NCBI RefSeq assembly: GCF_020400825.1
Contig: NZ_JAINVH010000020.1
Location: 1 to 64,000, forward strand
DNA from: Streptomyces sp. HPF1205
Lineage (GTDB): Bacteria > Actinomycetota > Actinomycetes > Streptomycetales > Streptomycetaceae
Direction: 5' to 3'
Length of the DNA stretch: 64,000 bases
Positions 3 to 54,148 of this stretch are shown piece after piece (position 1 is the first letter of the stretch; each line of letters begins with the position of its first letter). The notes under the pieces are model-generated. The model did no database searches, was not told where the DNA came from, and saw nothing but the letters and a program-made list of their open reading frames with translations. The position numbers were made by a program, and so were the translations under genes.

Positions 3-539
3 GCCTGGGCCGTCACGGCCGGCCTGACCGGCGGTGCCATGATCGCCGTCTCCGTGCTGGCGTTGCAGGCCAGCGGCGCGCCCGCGGCGAAGAACAACGC
101 CGCCCCGCCCAGCCCGCGCGCCTCGGCCACGACCCACCCGCACACCCCGCCGCCCCCGCCGCCGGTCCCGGCCCACTCCGGCATCGGCAAGCGCGTCGTG
201 TACTCCCTGTCGCAGCACCGGGTGTGGCTCGTGCCGGCCTCCGGCAAGCCCGTGACGACCTTCACCGTCCAACCCGGCACCGTCCCGCCCAGGCCCGGCC
301 CGCACCTGGTCACCCGCCGCAAGTCCGCCGGCGTCGGCACCGACGGCGCGTCCATCGAGCACATCGTGTTCTTCGACTACACCGCCGAGACGTGGGTCGC
401 CTTCTCCTCGGCCACCAGCGACAAGGTCGCCGCCCCCGACCCGTCCCTCCACACCGGCGCCATCCGCTCCCACCGCGCCCAGGGCACCGCCATCTGGAAC
501 GCCACCCGCATGGGGTCCGAGATCTACGTGGTGCGCTGA
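3..539 (+). CDS. L,D-transpeptidase-like membrane-anchored protein, 5' partial
   Basis: The frame is open to the left window edge, and a hydrophobic stretch (AWAVTAGLTGGA running into MIAVSVLAL) precedes the first in-window ATG at 39, so the true start probably lies upstream. After this membrane anchor comes a Pro/Thr-rich linker (about residues 25-60). The extracellular domain begins KRVVYSLSQHRVWLV and contains GAIRSHRAQGTAIWN. The opening resembles the first strand of YkuD-type L,D-transpeptidase domains, but I do not see the HGT/SxGC(I/V)R catalytic Cys signature, so activity is doubtful. It ends convergently with the next gene and overlaps it by 16 bases. I call it a transpeptidase-fold-like cell-envelope protein of unknown function. 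Confidence 0.6.
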   Translation, partial: AWAVTAGLTGGAMIAVSVLALQASGAPAAKNNAAPPSPRASATTHPHTPPPPPPVPAHSGIGKRVVYSLSQHRVWLVPASGKPVTTFTVQPGTVPPRPGPHLVTRRKSAGVGTDGASIEHIVFFDYTAETWVAFSSATSDKVAAPDPSLHTGAIRSHRAQGTAIWNATRMGSEIYVVR

Positions 540-1702
540 CGCGGCGGTTCCCCCGCCGGCGGCCGGTGCGATTCCCCCGCCGGCGGCCGGTGGTGGGCCA
601 GGTCCGGCAGCAGCGCCGGGTCGACGGGGGCGGTGAGGCGGATCTCGGTGAGCAGGGCCGGGCAGCCCTCGGCGACGAGGCGGGCGACCGCGCTGAGGCG
701 GTGGTTGCCGTCCAGGACGAGCCGGCGGTCCCCGTCGAGGGCGTACGTGGCCAGGAGCAGGCCGATCTCCTCGCCGTCGTGCCGGGCCTCGTAGCGGGCG
801 TACAGGTGCTGGACGCGGGCCTGCCGCTCCGGATGGAGCACGGACCCGTCGCCGGCCAGGTCGCGGTGCCGCAGCGGCTGGGCGCGCTCGTGGTCGTAGC
901 CGATCTCGCGGGCGCCGTCGTGGTACCAGGGCGCGTAATAGCCGTCGAGGGCCGCCAGGTCGTAGGGCGCCACGGGCACCGACAGCTTGTCCAGCCGCAC
1001 CGAGCCGTCCTCGCGCGCAGCCAGGCCGGCCAGCGCGTCCCAGTCGAGCGCGGTGCGGATGCGGTCCGTGCTCTGCGTGAAGTGCGTACGGAACAGGTCG
1101 AAGGTGACCCCGCCGGTCAGCGCGCCCAGCCGGGCCGTCTCCCCGTCGAGCTCCCGCGCCCAGAACTCCGCCATCGTCGGCGACCTCCTCGCGTTGAACA
1201 CGGCCGTCTCGCGCAGCTTGCGCACGACGGTCACCAGGTCCGCCCAGTCCTCGTCCGTCCACTGCGTGTGCGCCCGCAGACTCGACGTCAGGCTCGCGCG
1301 CACCGCCGCGACCGCCCGCACCACCGTGCGCAGATATTCTTCCTGCATCGCCTCCCGGGCGAGCGGCAGCAGCGCCAGCCCGGCGCGGCAGTCGTACAGC
1401 GTCCGGTGCGTGCGGCTGGGCAGGCTGCCCGCCCGCAGCAGCGGAACCGCCGCGGTGAGGATCGCCACCTTCTCCGTCAGCTCCAGGTCGGCCATGGCCT
1501 CCTGGATGTGGCCCTGCCGCCGGGCCAGCAGCATGCCGACCACCATGGTGGCCACGGCCCCCAGCCCGAAACTGGACGCCCAGTCCGACCAGCTCCACGC
1601 CTCCCCCGCCACCCACAGCAGCAGGTCCAGCAGCCCGGCCGCCACCGGCAGCACCGCCAGCGGCCAGTAACCGCGCCACAGCGTACGTAAGGTGCCGCGC
1701 AT
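524..1702 (-). CDS. Membrane protein with C-terminal ParB/Srx-like DGNHR motif
   Basis: 392 aa. The ATG at 1702 is preferred over an upstream TTG (1720) because a GGGGGAGGCGAGG ribosome site lies directly before it. The N-terminus has two hydrophobic segments (about residues 12-32 and 45-62), followed by a long, mostly helical charged region. Near the C-terminus (about 330-370) is RLVLDGNHRLSAVARL followed by a beta-strand-like segment, the pattern of the ParB/sulfiredoxin fold nucleotide-binding motif (DGxHRxxA). The last ~25 residues repeat HRPPAGE. I do not recognise the full-length family. Combining a membrane anchor with a ParB/Srx-like element is unusual. It lies downstream of another uncharacterised membrane protein on the same strand. 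Confidence 0.6.
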   Translation of the reverse strand: MRGTLRTLWRGYWPLAVLPVAAGLLDLLLWVAGEAWSWSDWASSFGLGAVATMVVGMLLARRQGHIQEAMADLELTEKVAILTAAVPLLRAGSLPSRTHRTLYDCRAGLALLPLAREAMQEEYLRTVVRAVAAVRASLTSSLRAHTQWTDEDWADLVTVVRKLRETAVFNARRSPTMAEFWARELDGETARLGALTGGVTFDLFRTHFTQSTDRIRTALDWDALAGLAAREDGSVRLDKLSVPVAPYDLAALDGYYAPWYHDGAREIGYDHERAQPLRHRDLAGDGSVLHPERQARVQHLYARYEARHDGEEIGLLLATYALDGDRRLVLDGNHRLSAVARLVAEGCPALLTEIRLTAPVDPALLPDLAHHRPPAGESHRPPAGEPPRQRTT

Positions 1703-2958: not shown

Positions 2959-3525
2959 TCACCACTCGTCGTCGTCCTCGTCGCCGAACGGCGGGCCGGG
3001 CGGGGTGTTGCGGACGGTCGAGGGCAGGCCCGTGAGGCTCCCGGGCGAGGGGGCGTTGGTGACGGAGACACCGGGCGAGGCCGTGTCGGTGTGCTTGTTC
3101 TTCGGCTTGACGATGCCGCCGGAGGCGGGGGTGTCGTCCGGGCCGTCCTCCCGGTCCCCCGGATCGGCCCTTCGCGCCTCCTTCTCGACGAAATCGGCCA
3201 GCGCCAGGGTCGTCTCCGCGGATGTCCAGTGCCCGACCGCCAGCTCCAGCGTGCGCCCGCCGGACAGGGTCAGGACGAGTCGCGTGGGTGACCGCCTGCG
3301 TTCGCTGAGCCAACCCAACAGCGCCCGCGCGAACGAGGCTCCGGACGGCCTGGTGAACGTGACCAGGATGGCAGGACGGTTCCCGGCCTCGTCCGGAACG
3401 TCGTCCTCGACGCTCACGCTCGTCGACGTCGCGAGTTCACCGTCACGCAGCATCGCGAGCAGCGACTCGTACTCGTCACGCGGCGATATGTGCGGCTCGA
3501 ACACGAGCCTGATCCTCAACGCCAC
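2959..3525 (-). CDS. EACC1-like (effector-associated constant component) protein
   Basis: 188 aa. The first ~115 residues resemble the actinobacterial EACC1 family: a short strand (ALRIRLVFEP), DEYESLLAMLRDGEL, a helix ending LLGWLSERRR, a strand pair TRLVLTLSGGRTLELAVG, then a helix. The remaining ~70 residues are a Pro/Ser/Thr/Asp-rich tail ending GDEDDDEW. In the literature EACC1 proteins are small constant partners of variable effectors in predicted NTP-dependent conflict systems; no classical effector (caspase, trypsin-like, STAND) is adjacent here. The nearest same-strand partners are two unknown membrane proteins downstream. The assignment rests on pattern recognition and could be wrong. 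Confidence 0.5.
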   Translation of the reverse strand: MALRIRLVFEPHISPRDEYESLLAMLRDGELATSTSVSVEDDVPDEAGNRPAILVTFTRPSGASFARALLGWLSERRRSPTRLVLTLSGGRTLELAVGHWTSAETTLALADFVEKEARRADPGDREDGPDDTPASGGIVKPKNKHTDTASPGVSVTNAPSPGSLTGLPSTVRNTPPGPPFGDEDDDEW

Positions 3526-3594: not shown

Positions 3595-3906
3595 TTACGG
3601 GGTCCCCACGCGGGCGGCGAACGCCGTGAAGGCGGTCCACTGCGTGGGGTCGAACGTAAGAGTGGGCCCCTCGGGCACCTTGGAGTCCCTGACGTGTACG
3701 GCTCCGGGGTGCGCGGCGACCTCGACGCAGGCTCCGCCGTCTTCGCTGCTGTAGCTGGACTTGTGCCAGTCGAAGGCTATTTCGACGCAGTTCCCGCCGT
3801 CTTCGCTGCTGTAGCTGGACTTGCGCCAGTCGAAGGCGACTTCAAGGCAGTCTCCGCCCTGGCTGCCGCTGTAGCTGGACTTGAACCACTTCAGTCGGGT
3901 GCTCAT
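3595..3906 (-). CDS. DUF397 protein with three tandem W-K-S-S-Y-S motifs
   Basis: 103 aa. DUF397 proteins are small partners of XRE/DUF5753 regulators in Streptomyces. The usual single opening motif (W.KSSYS...GG.CVEVA) is present three times here: WFKSSYSGSQGGDCLEVA, WRKSSYSSEDGGNCVEIA and WHKSSYSSEDGGACVEVA, at 20-residue spacing. The normal end follows once (VHVRDSKVPEGPTLTF...W..F). The start ATG at 3906 overlaps the XRE stop by one base (TGATG), and GGAGAG at the end of the XRE gene acts as ribosome site, so translation is probably coupled. The family likely acts with the upstream XRE and ATP-binding proteins in a developmental or antibiotic switch. Confidence 0.88.
   Translation of the reverse strand: MSTRLKWFKSSYSGSQGGDCLEVAFDWRKSSYSSEDGGNCVEIAFDWHKSSYSSEDGGACVEVAAHPGAVHVRDSKVPEGPTLTFDPTQWTAFTAFAARVGTP
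3721..3899 (-). repeat. Three-copy 60-bp in-frame tandem repeat
   Basis: Blocks beginning near 3721, 3781 and 3841 align at exactly 60 bp. The first two differ at only a few bases; the third is more diverged. Each encodes one 20-residue W-K-S-S-Y-S unit of the DUF397 protein, so the repeat preserves frame. Confidence 0.9.
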
Positions 3907-4736
3907 CACTCTCCTAGCAGCCGGTCCAACAGGTCCCCCGTCTCCTCATGGTTGAGGGCCTGCGTGCGCAGCATCGCATACTTGTGCCTCAAGATGCTGA
4001 CGTCGTTAGGGGCGTAGATGAGCTGACTGCCGCGCTGTGTCTCAGCGTAGGCGAGGTGATCGTTCTCGGGCGTTTCCAAGAGGACGAAAGGACCGTCGAG
4101 CGCCGCATGGGCCGTGCGCCCCAGTGGCAGGATCTGGATCGCGATACCTGGTACCTCGGCCATCCGACGCAGGTGGCGTAGTTGGCTCCGGTAGACCTCG
4201 TCACCACCGATCCGGTCTCTCACGATGGCCTCTGAGAGGATGAAGCTGGTGATCGGCGGAACCTTGCGTTGCAGGATCTCCTGACGTTCGAGCCGTGCAG
4301 ACACCCGGAACTCGATTTCCTCATCGCTCAGCGTAGGAATGTCGTTGTGGAAGACAGCCCTCATGTACGACTCGGACTGCAGCATGCCCGGAGCAACCTG
4401 GTTCTGGAACGAGGAGATCGCGATGGCCTCGCGTTCGAATTCGACGAACTCGACGGCCCAAACCGGAATAACGTCAGGCTCCGGCAGGTAGCTGACCGCA
4501 ACCTCCAGCGCCCCCTTCGTGTCGAGAATGCGGTCGAACTCCTGGGCGAGTGACAGCGTGAGGGGCCGCCGGCCCTGTTCGATCGACTCCAGCTTCGCCT
4601 GGCTGATGATGACCATGGGGGCCAACTGGGCCTGCGTGTAGCCCGCCGCCGCGCGGAAGAGGGCTAACTGGGCGCCCACCGACTGGAAGGGATTGGACTT
4701 CTTCTTGTTCGGCGGACGCCGTTTACGTGGTGCCAT
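3906..4736 (-). CDS. XRE-family regulator with DUF5753 domain (WhiJ-like), TTA-containing
   Basis: 276 aa from the ATG at 4736 (MAPRKRRPP). A Lys/Arg-rich N-terminus precedes a helix-turn-helix (about residues 18-75: LALFRAAAGYTQAQLA, ISQAKLESIEQGRRPL). DUF5753 then begins at EFVEFEREAIAISSFQNQVAPGMLQ and runs to the C-terminus (LLDRLLGE). This architecture is typical of the WhiJ-like regulators found with DUF397 and RsbW-like genes. Codon 24 (Leu, 4667-4665) is TTA, the only TTA I noticed in a gene here, which implies possible dependence on the bldA tRNA. The gene is divergent from the ATP-binding gene; a 27-bp inverted repeat between them is the obvious operator. Confidence 0.92.
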   Translation of the reverse strand: MAPRKRRPPNKKKSNPFQSVGAQLALFRAAAGYTQAQLAPMVIISQAKLESIEQGRRPLTLSLAQEFDRILDTKGALEVAVSYLPEPDVIPVWAVEFVEFEREAIAISSFQNQVAPGMLQSESYMRAVFHNDIPTLSDEEIEFRVSARLERQEILQRKVPPITSFILSEAIVRDRIGGDEVYRSQLRHLRRMAEVPGIAIQILPLGRTAHAALDGPFVLLETPENDHLAYAETQRGSQLIYAPNDVSILRHKYAMLRTQALNHEETGDLLDRLLGE

Positions 4737-4779
4737 GCGACCGTAGATACCCCACTTCCCCCAGACGCGTATCGTCGTG

Positions 4780-4850: not shown

Positions 4851-5306
4851 ATGAACACCGAGCCTCAACTCAGCGACGTACGGGAGCGGTTCTATCCGCG
4901 GGAGCGGCGCTCCATTCCGGCCGCACGTAAGTTCGCACAGCAGGCCCTCAGCGATTGGGGGTTGAACGAGCGCAGCGACGACGTACTGGTGTGCGTCAGT
5001 GAATTGGCGACGAATGCGCTGCTGCACGGGGTGCCGCCCGGGAGGGGGTTTCTGCTGCTGCTGAAACGGGAGGACGGGGACCGGTTGCGGGTGGAGGTGC
5101 ACGACAGCGGGGACGGGCACCCGGCGATGCGGCGGCAGGGGGCGCAGGCGGAGGCCGGGCGGGGGCTGTGGCTGGTGGACGCGCTGGCCGACGCCTGGGA
5201 TGTGGGGGCGAGGGTGCCGGGGAAGATCGTGTGGTGCGAGTTCGCGATGAAGGACCATGAAGGAAGGGCCGCCGGAGCCGGGGAGCGGGAAAACCACGTG
5301 ACGTGA
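4851..5306 (+). CDS. RsbW-like ATP-binding (HATPase_c_2) regulatory protein
   Basis: 151 aa. It has the GHKL ATPase boxes of the RsbW/SpoIIAB group: N box ELATNALLHG (about residue 51), G1 box VEVHDSGDGHP (about 84) and G2 box GRGLWLVDALADAW (about 104). There is no histidine phosphoacceptor domain, so it is an anti-sigma or serine-kinase-like switch protein rather than a sensor kinase. It is divergent from the XRE/DUF397 pair, the standard Streptomyces three-gene arrangement, and would be expected to act with those proteins in the cytoplasm. Its stop overlaps the start of the EamA gene by 4 bases (GTGA). Confidence 0.9.
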   Translation: MNTEPQLSDVRERFYPRERRSIPAARKFAQQALSDWGLNERSDDVLVCVSELATNALLHGVPPGRGFLLLLKREDGDRLRVEVHDSGDGHPAMRRQGAQAEAGRGLWLVDALADAWDVGARVPGKIVWCEFAMKDHEGRAAGAGERENHVT

Positions 5307-42374: not shown

Positions 42375-43631
42375 CTAGTTGAGGCCGGAGTAGCTGGCGT
42401 CGGACGGACCGTTCGGCATGTTCTGCATGATCATGCCGATGATGTCCTGCGGGTTGAGCTGGTCGGCACCGGCCGGGACGTCCAGCGAGTCGGCGCTGTT
42501 GTCGATGGTGAGGGTGACCGGCAGCTTCTTGCCGTTCGCCTGGTCGTCGAGCTGTTCGAGGTCGAAGGTGACGGCGGAGACGTGGCCGCTCTTGACCGAC
42601 ACGTCGAAGGCGATGGTGCGGTTGGGCACGCCGCTGGTGTCGTTGAAGTTGTTCAGGTCGGACTGGCTGATGTTCGGGATCTGCTTGAGGATCGGGGTCA
42701 GATCGGTCGCCAGGTCCTTCGCGAGCTTGCGGGCGGGCACGGTCACCCGGACCACGCTCGCGCCGTCCTTCTTGCCGACGTCCTTGTAGGTGGCGTCCTT
42801 GTTGTTGAGGATGTCCTGCTTCAGCACGGCGAGGAGCCGGCCGCCGTCGATCTTCGGCATCTGGCCGTTCAGCGCGCCGCCCAGCGGGGAGCCGGAGGAG
42901 TCGCCCGAACCGAAGCCGGAGGCCCCGTTCTTCTGGGCCATCGACTTGGCGAAGTCCGTCCACGCCTTGGGGTCGAGGACGACCCACTGGCCGTTCAGGG
43001 CGGCCTTCACGGCGTGCAGCGACGACGGGAGCTGCTGGGCGTTGCCCAGGAACTGGTTGAACTCCCGCAGGTCCGAGGCCGCGTTGGGGGAGGTGTCCAG
43101 CTTCTCCAGTCCCTTGACGTCGGCCCGCAGGTAGAGCTTGTTGTCGAGCCCCCGCATCTCGATGAGGTTGCTCTTGCCGTCCGGGTCGTTGGACAGCGCG
43201 AAGGCGAACCGCCCGCCGGACGCGCCGGAGCGGGACTTCAGCAGGCTGAACTGCTTCTGCGTGCTGGCCGACATGCTCACGTGCAGCGACGCCACCATCT
43301 TGGCGTCGTCCCTGGTGAAGCCGCTGTTGGAGTCACCGCTGGTGAAGGCGGCGTAGATCTGGTCGGGCGTCGCGTCGAAGGACAGCCCGACCGTGGCGGA
43401 CTTCTGCTCGCCCAGCTTGGTCACGGCCTTCTGGACCTTGGCCTGGGGCGTGGCCTGGGCCGTCCCGCATGCGGCGGAGCCGGCGGCTATGAGGGCCACA
43501 ACGCCGGCGGCAGCGAGGCCCTTGCGCTTGGTGATGATGACGAACTCCTTGGACGCGTTGCGCGGATATGCGGGAAACGGATCGACGGTCGGGGGCGGTC
43601 GTAACGCCACGCACCGGCATCCGGCCGACAC
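42375..43631 (-). CDS. LolA/LppX-like lipoprotein, start codon uncertain
   Basis: The longest frame begins at an ATG at 43631, giving 418 aa, but its first ~31 residues (MSAGCRC...NASKEF) do not look like a signal peptide n-region. A perfect AAGGAG (in-frame Lys-Glu) sits six bases before two ATC codons at 43538 and 43535, where the normal start of VIITKRKGLAAAGVVALIAAG would be, followed by the lipobox AGSAAC. Initiation at ATC, or a changed start codon, is possible. The mature part has LHVSMSASTQKQFSLLKSR, GLDNKLYLRADVKGLEKL and later VDVSVKSGHVSAVTFDLEQL-like strands, as in LolA/LppX-like lipid-binding lipoproteins. Confidence 0.78.
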   Translation of the reverse strand: MSAGCRCVALRPPPTVDPFPAYPRNASKEFVIITKRKGLAAAGVVALIAAGSAACGTAQATPQAKVQKAVTKLGEQKSATVGLSFDATPDQIYAAFTSGDSNSGFTRDDAKMVASLHVSMSASTQKQFSLLKSRSGASGGRFAFALSNDPDGKSNLIEMRGLDNKLYLRADVKGLEKLDTSPNAASDLREFNQFLGNAQQLPSSLHAVKAALNGQWVVLDPKAWTDFAKSMAQKNGASGFGSGDSSGSPLGGALNGQMPKIDGGRLLAVLKQDILNNKDATYKDVGKKDGASVVRVTVPARKLAKDLATDLTPILKQIPNISQSDLNNFNDTSGVPNRTIAFDVSVKSGHVSAVTFDLEQLDDQANGKKLPVTLTIDNSADSLDVPAGADQLNPQDIIGMIMQNMPNGPSDASYSGLN

Positions 43632-49452: not shown

Positions 49453-50580
<1,128 letters not shown>

Positions 50581-50603
50581 GTCCGCCGCGGGCGGGGGCG
50601 CCC

Positions 50604-51017
50604 TCAGCCGGTGACGGGCCGCGGCTCCCGCGCGGCCCGGGCGTCGTAGGCGTCGCGCGCGTCCAGGATCTCGTCGATGTGCTCCTCGGACCACACCCGG
50701 ATGCCGCTGAGCAGGTCGGTGACGCTCGCCCCGAGCGGCGTGGCCGCGTACTCCACGCGCGGCGGGATCGTCGGGTAGACCGTACGGGTGACCAGCCCGT
50801 CACGCTCCAGGGTGCGCAGGGTCTGGGTGAGCATCTTCTGGGTGATGCCGTCCAGGCGCCGGCGCAGCGCCCCGAAGCGCACCGGACCGCCGGACAGGGC
50901 CCCCATGACCAGCAGGGTCCACTTGTTCGCGAGGACGTCCAGGACCTGACGGGACGGGCAGGCAGCGAGGTAGGCGTCGGCGCCGCCGTGAAAGCGCAAG
51001 TCGGAGGTAGTACCCAT
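50604..51017 (-). CDS. HxlR-family transcriptional regulator
   Basis: 137 aa. HxlR pattern: CPSRQVLDVLANKWTLLVMGALSGGPVRFGALRRRLDGITQKMLTQTLRTLERDGLVTRTVYPTIPPRVEYAATPLG, a winged helix with the typical invariant K-W and T-Q-K-M-L-T. A single Cys (residue 20) could sense electrophiles or redox, as in YodB/HypR. It is divergent from an NADP-dependent quinone oxidoreductase 152 bp away; GGTACC-TATA-TACC and related half-sites between them (about 51001-51033) look like an operator. Together they form a likely quinone or electrophile-response pair. Confidence 0.93.
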   Translation of the reverse strand: MGTTSDLRFHGGADAYLAACPSRQVLDVLANKWTLLVMGALSGGPVRFGALRRRLDGITQKMLTQTLRTLERDGLVTRTVYPTIPPRVEYAATPLGASVTDLLSGIRVWSEEHIDEILDARDAYDARAAREPRPVTG

Positions 51018-51169
51018 GAGGTACCTATATACCCTCCACGTGCCTTCTACCCAAGGGGTACCGCCCGATCCGAGGATGGAGCCGTTCCCGAGAGGGACCG
51101 TCCGCTTCGTCCGGCGGCGTCCGCTCCCTTCAGCGGCGCCCGCCCCTTCCGGCAAGGAGAACCCCGGCC

Positions 51170-52108
51170 ATGCGCGCGATCACCCAGAACACCTTCGGCG
51201 GCCCCGAGGTCCTGGAGGTCACCGACCTGCCCGTGCCCGACCTGGGACCCGGCCGTGTGCTGGTCCGGGTCAAGGCCGCCGGCGTCAACCCGATCGAGCT
51301 GTTCATCCGCTCCGGAGCCTTCCCGCTGCTGGGCGAGCCGCCGTTCGTCCTCGGCTGGGACCTCTCGGGGGTGGTCGAGCGGGTCGAGCCGGGTGTGCAC
51401 CGCTTCAAGGAGGGCGACGAGGTGTACGGCCTCCCGCTGTTCCCCCTCGCCGCCGGCGCCTACGCGGAGTACGTGTCCGCCCCCGCCCGCCAGCTCGCCC
51501 GCAAGCCCGCCGGCATCAGCCACGAGGAGGCCGCCGCCCTCCCGCTGGTCGGCCTCACCGCCTGGCAGGCGTTCGCCGAGATCGCGGAGCTGCGGCCGGG
51601 GCAGCGGGTCCTCGTCCACGGCGCGGGCGGCGGCCTCGGCCACGTCGCCGTACAGCTCGCCAAGCACATGGGCGCCCAGGTCGTCGGCACGGCGAGCGCG
51701 GGCAAGCACGAGTTCCTGCGCGGCCTGGGCGCCGACCGGCTCATCGATCACCGGACGGCGGACTACGCCGAGGTGCTGCGCGACGACCCCGTGGACGTCG
51801 TGCTGGAGACCCTCGGCGGGGGCCACGCCGAGCGCTCCTTCACCATCCTGCGCCCCGGCGGCCTGCTCATCACCGCCGTCGAGCGGACCAGCACCACCCT
51901 GCCCGGCCTGGCCGCCGAGGCCGGGGTCCGCTTCGCGCCGCTCGGCGTGGAGCCCGACGCGGCCGGCCTGGAATCCCTCACCGCCCTCGTCGAGGCGGGC
52001 CGCCTGCGCCCGTACCTCCAGGAGGTCCTCCCGCTGGAGCAGGCGGCCAAGGCGCACGAGATCGTGGCGACCGGGTCGGTGCGGGGCAAGGTCGTGCTGT
52101 CGGTGTGA
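51170..52108 (+). CDS. NADP-dependent zinc-less quinone oxidoreductase
   Basis: 312 aa. MDR fold with VLVRVKAAGVNPIELFIRSG (catalytic-domain N-part), GWDLSGVVERVEPGV, VLVHGAGGGLGHVAVQLAKHMGAQVVG (NAD(P) loop), ADRLIDHRTADYAEVLRDDPVDVVLETLGG and VRGKVVLSV. The zinc ligands of alcohol dehydrogenases are absent, so it belongs with quinone or crotonyl-type reductases. It is divergent from the HxlR regulator, so it is probably induced by an electrophile or quinone. It lies just upstream of mqnC on the same strand (136-bp gap), but is not known to belong to the pathway. Confidence 0.92.
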   Translation: MRAITQNTFGGPEVLEVTDLPVPDLGPGRVLVRVKAAGVNPIELFIRSGAFPLLGEPPFVLGWDLSGVVERVEPGVHRFKEGDEVYGLPLFPLAAGAYAEYVSAPARQLARKPAGISHEEAAALPLVGLTAWQAFAEIAELRPGQRVLVHGAGGGLGHVAVQLAKHMGAQVVGTASAGKHEFLRGLGADRLIDHRTADYAEVLRDDPVDVVLETLGGGHAERSFTILRPGGLLITAVERTSTTLPGLAAEAGVRFAPLGVEPDAAGLESLTALVEAGRLRPYLQEVLPLEQAAKAHEIVATGSVRGKVVLSV

Positions 52109-52244
52109 GGGCGGCCCGGGGGCGTGCGGCTGGACGTGCGGCGGCGTGTGCGGCTGGGCGTGCGGCGGGAACCCGCCGCCGACCGCCGGCCGGGGGCGGG
52201 CGTAGTCTGTGCTGGTCCGCCCAGCGAGCGTGAAGGGACCCCCG

Positions 52245-53435
52245 GTGAGCGACCTCCAAGCCGTGCTCGACCGTGCCGCCCAGGGTGGGCGGATCAGCCC
52301 CGAGGAGGCGCTGGAGCTCTACCGCGACGCGCCGCTGCACGCGCTGGGGGCCGCCGCCGACGCGGCCAGGCGCCGCCGGTACGCGGGCACGGAACACATC
52401 GCCACGTACATCATCGAACGGAACATCAACTACACGAACGTGTGCGTGACGGCGTGCAAGTTCTGCGCCTTCTACGCTGCGCCCAAGGACGAGGCCAAGG
52501 GCTGGGTCCGGGACCTGGACGACATCCTGCGGCGGTGCGCGCAGACCGTGGAGCTCGGCGGGACGCAGATCATGTTCCAGGGCGGCCACCACCCGGACTT
52601 CGGGGTCGAGTACTACGAGAAGCACTTCGCGGCCATCAAGAAGGAGTTCCCGCAGCTCGTCATCCACTCCCTCGGCGCCTCCGAGGTCGAGCACATGTCG
52701 CGGATCTCCGGGGTGAGCGCCGAGGAGGCCATCCGCCGCATCCACGCCGCCGGACTCGACTCCTTCGCCGGGGCCGGCGCGGAACTGCTGCCCGAGCGGC
52801 CGCGCAAGGCCATCGCACCGCTGAAGGAGTCCGGCGAGCGGTGGCTGGAGATCATGGAGACCGCCCACAACCTGGGCGTGGAGTCCACCTCCACCATGCT
52901 GATGGGCACCGGCGAGACCAACGCCGAGCGGATCGAGCACCTGCGGATGATCCGCGACGTGCAGGACCGCACCGGCGGCTTCCGCGCCTTCATCCCGTAC
53001 ACCTACCAGCCGGAGAACAACCACCTGCGGGGCCGCACGCAGGCCACGCTCTTCGAGTACCTGCGGATGATCGCCGTCGCCCGGCTGTTCCTGGACAACG
53101 TCGCCCACATCCAGGGCTCCTGGCTCACCACCGGCAAGGAGGTGGGCCAGCTCTCCCTGCACTACGGCGCCGACGACCTGGGCTCGGTGATGCTGGAGGA
53201 GAACGTCGTCTCCTCGGCCGGCGCCCGGCACCGCTCCAACCGCATGGAGCTGATCCACCTGATCCGCACCGCCGGCCGCGTCCCGGCCCAGCGGGCCACC
53301 ACCTACGAGCACCTCGTCGTGCACGACGATCCGGCCAACGACCCGGTCGACGACCAGGTCGTCTCCCACCTGTCGTCCACGGCTATCGAGGGCGGCACCG
53401 CCCACCCCGAACTGAAGCTCCTGGACGCGCGCTGA
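52245..53435 (+). CDS. mqnC: Cyclic dehypoxanthinyl futalosine synthase MqnC (radical SAM)
   Basis: 396 aa. The GTG at 52245 ([11 protein letters not shown]) is preferred over the upstream TTG-type frame because AAGGGA precedes it. The cluster motif is CVTACKFC, with [67 protein letters not shown] and [19 protein letters not shown]. MqnC cyclises dehypoxanthinyl futalosine using an adenosyl radical. The protein resembles MqnE but with a different C-terminus. It is followed 15 bp later by menG. Confidence 0.95.
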
Positions 53436-53449
53436 CTAGGGTGGGCCCC

Positions 53450-54148
53450 GTGACCCGAGCCTCCCTGGACAAGCGCCCCAAGGACGTCGCCGCGATGTTC
53501 GACGGCGTCGCGGAGAAGTACGACCTGACCAACGACGTGCTCTCGCTGGGCCAGACCCGGCTGTGGCGGCGCGCGGTCGCCCAGGCGCTGGGCGTACGGC
53601 CGGGGGAGCGGGTGCTGGACCTCGGCGCCGGCACCGGCACGTCCTCGCTGCCGTTCGCCGCGGCGGGCGGCAGCGTGGTGCCGTGCGACTTCTCCCTGGG
53701 CATGCTCGCGCAGGGCAAGAAGCGCCACCCCGAACTGCCGCTGACGGCGGCGGACGCGACCCGGCTGCCGTTCGCCGACGGCGTGTTCGACGCGGCCGCC
53801 ATCTCCTTCGCGCTGCGCAACGTGCACGACCCGGACGCCGCCCTGCGCGAGATGCGCCGGGTGGTACGCCCCGGCGGCCGGCTCGTCGTCTGCGAGTTCA
53901 GCCACCCCACCATGAAGCCGCTGCGCACCGTCTACACCGAGTACCTGATGCGGGCGCTGCCCCCGGTGGCCACCGCGGTCAGCAGCAACCCGGACGCGTA
54001 CGTCTACCTCGCCGAGTCCATCCGCGCCTGGCCCGACCAGCGCGCCCTGGCCGCCCGCATCAAGACCGCCGGCTGGGCCTCGGTCGCCTGGCGCAACCTG
54101 ACCGGCGGCATCGTGGCACTCCACCGGGGCACGAAGCCGGCGGCCTAG
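53450..54148 (+). CDS. menG: Demethylmenaquinone methyltransferase MenG (UbiE)
   Basis: 232 aa from GTG 53450. It has class I methyltransferase motifs: [74 protein letters not shown] and [23 protein letters not shown]. UbiE/MenG transfers the final methyl from SAM to demethylmenaquinone. It follows mqnC by 15 bp. The substrate here should be demethylmenaquinone, since no ubiquinone pathway is expected in actinobacteria. It probably forms a unit with the reductase-like gene at 56184. Confidence 0.95.

Follow-up and report, generated by a model that had tools for sequence, protein, structure and literature searches.

A clade-conserved TTA codon in a WhiJ-type regulator gene of Actinacidiphila as a candidate point of bldA control

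The gene for an XRE/DUF5753 regulator in the window, by which we mean the whole 64-kb stretch of DNA that was analysed, has TTA as its 24th codon, and this codon has been kept at the same leucine in all nine members of a clade from the genus Actinacidiphila. TTA is a rare leucine codon that, in the relatives of Streptomyces, has a developmentally controlled tRNA as its sole reader. The gene belongs to a WhiJ-type triad, and the reading that we favour, and consider reasonably probable from the comparison of homologous sequences, is that the UUA codon of the regulator is under selection and that bldA would gate the translation of an autoregulated switch together with its coupled partner. The codon would then probably serve to time the production of both the regulator and the partner protein.

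Results

Reading of the minus strand and its translation from the ATG at 4736 (MAPRKRRPPNKKKSNPFQSVGAQ-L24-ALFRAAAGYTQ) bear out the claim, made in an earlier note on this DNA, that codon 24 of the XRE/DUF5753 gene is TTA (Table 1). Orthologues share this ATGGCACC start and the N-terminus, which backs the choice of start; the frame as such continues open upstream, but an extension in that direction runs into the divergent ATPase gene. The earlier note had noticed no other TTA within a gene of the window, but the gene at 524–1702 has one at codon 5. The codon scan of the 60 predicted genes did, however, find TTA within genes to be rare, in around two of the 60, rather than abundant nearby. A third TTA, near 43604–43602, probably precedes the point at which its gene truly begins. 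A TTA codon in any given gene here is uncommon and by itself unremarkable, and it is conservation that probably raises the one at codon 24 above chance.

Table 1. Positions of the TTA codon, the triad genes and the associated elements within the window.
Feature	Position	Strand	Evidence or context
TTA as codon 24 of the XRE gene, where the helix-turn-helix region begins	4667–4665	minus	Sequence and translation
XRE/DUF5753 (WhiJ-like) regulator, 276 aa	4736–3906	minus	Pfam DUF5753 1.5e-47, HTH_31 4.9e-11
DUF397 partner, 103 aa, three DUF397-type repeats; ATG overlaps the XRE stop	3595–3906	minus	Pfam DUF397 8.7e-40, three stretches
TGATG, in which stop and start overlap; AGGAG-type ribosome site inside the end of the XRE gene	3904–3908	minus	Overlap conserved at 9/9 TTA loci
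AbaA-like HATPase (anti-sigma-factor-like), without TTA; divergent with respect to XRE	4851–5306	plus	Pfam HATPase_c_2 1e-14
Inverted repeat AACTCGTAC-N9-GTACGAGTT, putative operator	4806–4780		Central in the 114 bp separating xre from the abaA-like gene
Conserved GTGGGGTA element, ~12–20 bases before the ATG	4748–4755	minus	Upstream alignment

The other gene with TTA (524–1702, minus strand; TTA at 1690–1688) encodes a protein of 392 aa behind a good ribosome site (GGGGGAGGCGAGG-ATG). By eye, its product has a membrane part at the N-terminus and a DGNHRLSA motif like that of ParB. It has no Pfam match, and 34 further genomes of the genus yielded no homologue. This gene and that of an unknown membrane protein (1858–2916) adjoin a minus-strand gene (2959–3525) whose product has an EACC1 domain (PF19953, 1e-8). 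The domain is named as part of predicted NTP-dependent conflict systems (PMC7159879), and the three genes possibly make up one small conflict module.

The proposal that the regulator gene sits in a WhiJ-like triad is upheld by Pfam, which identifies all three elements, namely HTH_31 with DUF5753 in the regulator, an adjacent DUF397 gene and an adjacent AbaA-like HATPase gene, and the layout matches that of WhiJ-type triads as described previously (PMC4255298; PMC10294661). The AbaA-like HATPase also gave a match to an RsbA-like anti-sigma factor that was below cut-off, and the NCBIfam Sco1979 model scored 128, below its cut-off of 350, so that no orthology with a named S. coelicolor gene was established. 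That the DUF397 protein is a coupled partner, as was also suggested beforehand, fits with the conserved stop/start overlap, since the stop of the XRE gene overlaps the DUF397 start in 9/9 TTA loci (as TGATG, TAATG or ATGA), with GGAGAG directly before it. The Streptomyces coelicolor gene SCO6638, which contains TTA and whose stop overlaps the start of SCO6637, offers a precedent for the effect proposed here on DUF397, as a bldA mutant makes less of both products or none (PMC2000904).

The N-terminal DUF397 motif of the partner (KSSYSSEDGG.CVE.AFDW) is present in three near-identical copies, and the locus L075 likewise has three consecutive DUF397 matches. In six Streptomyces homologues (L032, L041, L093, L116, L136 and L155) TTA is the last codon of the XRE gene, which seems to follow simply from the TTATGA in which the gene overlaps the next start codon.

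Searches of the genus, the family and named genomes yielded 115 distinct homologues, ten of which have TTA at the aligned position. Nine of these ten form a single clade (support 100/97), all from the genus of the window, and 105 of the 106 other Streptomycetaceae homologues are without TTA at codon 24. The tenth carrier, L064, comes from another genus of the family (taken as Streptomyces) and is distant in the tree, its sister L056 having TTG. The non-TTA codons at this site across the 115 homologues are CTC (44), GTC (25), GTG (23), CTG (6), TTG (5), CTA (1) and ATC (1). Comparison of the orthologous codon in related genomes, the check put forward with the original claim of bldA control, supports that claim within the near clade, where every member has TTA, and goes against it among distant homologues, with their CTC, CTG or valine codons.

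The nine clade genes share 57–91% protein identity, and their codon identity at shared residues averages 0.59. Fifteen leucine columns are invariant among them, and codon 24 alone uses TTA (9/9), with most of the others mixing CTG, CTC and TTG. Between most of the nine loci, only ~1.5 kb, the triad, can be aligned and the flanks differ, with the locus L068 stopping at a contig end; the pairs L069/L072 and L070/L071 share their flanks too. One genome has two copies at different places, both with TTA, and overall the triads that carry the codon are embedded in at least five clearly distinct neighborhoods. Beside the copy L073, the AbaA-like gene could not be matched, and the AbaA-like partners of L069 and L072 each have a TTA of their own. 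An origin from a plasmid was also considered and is not supported, with plasmid records giving only distant relatives at 34–36% identity.

It could be argued that the TTA is a neutral relic, gained by chance in the ancestor of the Actinacidiphila clade and present still because too little time has passed for its loss. A single gain would indeed account for all nine occurrences, the carriers being one clade and the separate Streptomyces case L064, yet the genes have diverged to the extent given above with heavy synonymous change, and other TTA codons of the family turn over completely between nearest relatives. Not one of 14 such codons (last codons left out) was shared with the nearest relative, vs. 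nine of ten at codon 24 (Fisher P = 8e-6, on counts that are non-independent through shared ancestry). Similarly, among pairs with at least 65% identity, TTA was shared in 40 of 41 at codon 24 vs. 2 of 457 at other sites. Modeling was less uniform. An initial frequency-based neutral model gave weak support for selection, and a substitution model for leucine codons, for which 32 other leucine columns served as the fitting data, gave a neutral probability of nine retentions from a TTA ancestor of 8e-5 with rates set by nucleotide frequencies, which speaks against a relic, and of 0.15 with rates set by codon frequencies, which speaks for one. These two versions fit about equally (likelihoods of −263.7 and −262.0, respectively). 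Whilst the outcome hinges on the neutral model, selection on the TTA at codon 24 is likely, and we regard a neutral relic as an unlikely explanation.

Alternatively, the TTA may have been kept for a reason unconnected with its tRNA, such as a DNA site, a promoter, mRNA structure or slow early translation. Being early in its own gene and 184 bases away from where the divergent gene starts, the codon falls in a place that might accommodate a DNA element, and several loci have CAATTAGC around it. The neighboring codons are nevertheless variable, with GGC, GGG, GGA or GGT three before, CAG, CAA or CTG just before, and GCC, GCA, GCG or GGG after. This variation in third positions and in residues speaks against an extended DNA site around codon 24 and indicates that the conserved unit is the codon; the conserved putative operator, moreover, is 115–140 bases off. 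An explanation of this kind is thus considered quite improbable, well behind that of a neutral relic.

The core of the inverted repeat, CGTAC-N9-GTACG, precedes the start codon in 107 of the 115 homologues, at a median of 65 bases, and was found in none of the shuffled sequences. Other spacers are almost absent, save in 21 sequences that also show an 18-base spacing of the halves, which is perhaps a third half-site. Genome-wide, a slightly stricter form of the motif has three occurrences, and among the 23 DUF5753 loci of the genome this is the only one with the core motif within ~1.5 kb. The simplest reading is that the palindrome is a putative operator that is local, autoregulatory and divergent. 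No report of the motif was found in a full-text literature search, most subscription journals being outside its coverage. We present CGTAC-N9-GTACG as a candidate operator in a family about whose binding sites little is known. The GTGGGGTA element, closer to the gene, may be the −10 region of a transcript with a short leader or none.

The genome (8.4 Mb in 187 contigs, 99% complete) belongs to Actinacidiphila, which is within the Streptomyces family and outside Streptomyces in the strict sense. A bldA tRNA-Leu(UAA) gene is present, identified by ARAGORN as tRNA-Leu (taa) and with one mismatch in 33 bases to the bldA pattern of S. coelicolor. An ORF of the AdpA type, presumed to be AdpA from its motif, has TTA at RS-L-PEEIG, in the linker between the DJ-1/PfpI and DNA-binding parts. 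With both the tRNA gene and the TTA in the adpA linker, the bldA-adpA system appears to be in place. Against dependence of codon 24 on bldA, some UUA codons are decoded without bldA in certain species. Elsewhere in the window, only two other genes lie between an mqnA-like and an mqnC-like gene (49726–54148), an interval that in S. coelicolor presumably contains whiJ itself.

Discussion

Under bldA control, scarcity of the bldA tRNA would cause ribosomes to stall at codon 24 and no XRE protein would be produced, whilst translational coupling would leave DUF397, encoded by the overlapping gene, poorly expressed. Once the tRNA became available, which is expected in late growth, the two proteins would appear together. 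The XRE protein may then bind the palindrome that lies between its own gene and the abaA-like one, and the pair would set the expression of these two genes, with a direction and timing that are likewise proposed. A survey of 213 Streptomyces species found most TTA codons to be poorly conserved (PMC10327506), and the persistence of the present one across deep divergence, gene movement and duplication is a sign that the codon works in regulation. If so, the locus would offer a clean case of bldA acting on a WhiJ-type switch, and one that is open to testing. A wider reading, in which the locus is a developmental checkpoint specific to Actinacidiphila and a single codon gates a WhiJ paralogue, a coupled DUF397 repeat protein and, via the palindromic operator, an anti-sigma-like protein, is offered more tentatively, as a real possibility that we would stop short of calling probable.

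A close parallel for the pair itself is Scr1/Scr2 (SCO4441/4442), an activator of antibiotic production in which an XRE/DUF5753 protein likewise needs its DUF397 partner (PMC6262351). The paper on this pair mentions no link to bldA or TTA, and its DUF397 partner is of 63 aa, compared to the 103 aa and three repeats found here. Orthology with Scr1 was weighed on position and domain layout and was not established. XRE-DUF397 pairs have been predicted to be type II toxin-antitoxin systems, according to work cited in PMC10364602, in which case the TTA might limit an antitoxin. Overexpression of Scr1/Scr2 and of fourteen further pairs from S. coelicolor gave no such behavior, however (PMC6262351; PMC10364602), and we think it highly improbable that the present pair is a system of this kind.

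Control by bldA through a conserved TTA is known from adpA, which is also a developmental regulator (PMC4255298) and which has its TTA in this genome too. The TTA of adpA is, however, near universal and located between two domains, whereas the one described here is limited to a clade and falls at codon 24. Among WhiJ-like genes, SCO1242 is a close comparison, being a WhiJ-type DNA-binding regulator with a conserved TTA that is carried by 9 of the 11 orthologues from Streptomyces (PMC4255298, Table 2). It probably represents another paralogue group. In Streptomyces, homologues of the gene described here have mainly CTC, GTC or GTG at this codon. The same review found no TTA in 19 other whiJ-like genes of S. 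coelicolor, and reported conserved TTA codons in several AbaA-like genes of whiJ-type clusters (PMC4255298). Conserved TTA codons in members of such clusters are thus already known, and what is new here is one that is limited to a genus.

The whiJ locus (SCO4542–4544) and its paralogues, including iosA-whiJ9-bldB9 of S. venezuelae, have the same triad of XRE regulator, small partner and AbaA-like gene (iosA in the case of whiJ9), with a regulator that probably acts on the intergenic region as is proposed here (PMC10294661). There are two differences. Unlike the present XRE gene, whiJ (SCO4543) and its neighbors are without TTA (PMC4255298), and WhiJ9 binds direct repeats (PMC10294661), whereas the conserved element at this locus is an inverted repeat with a 9-bp spacer.
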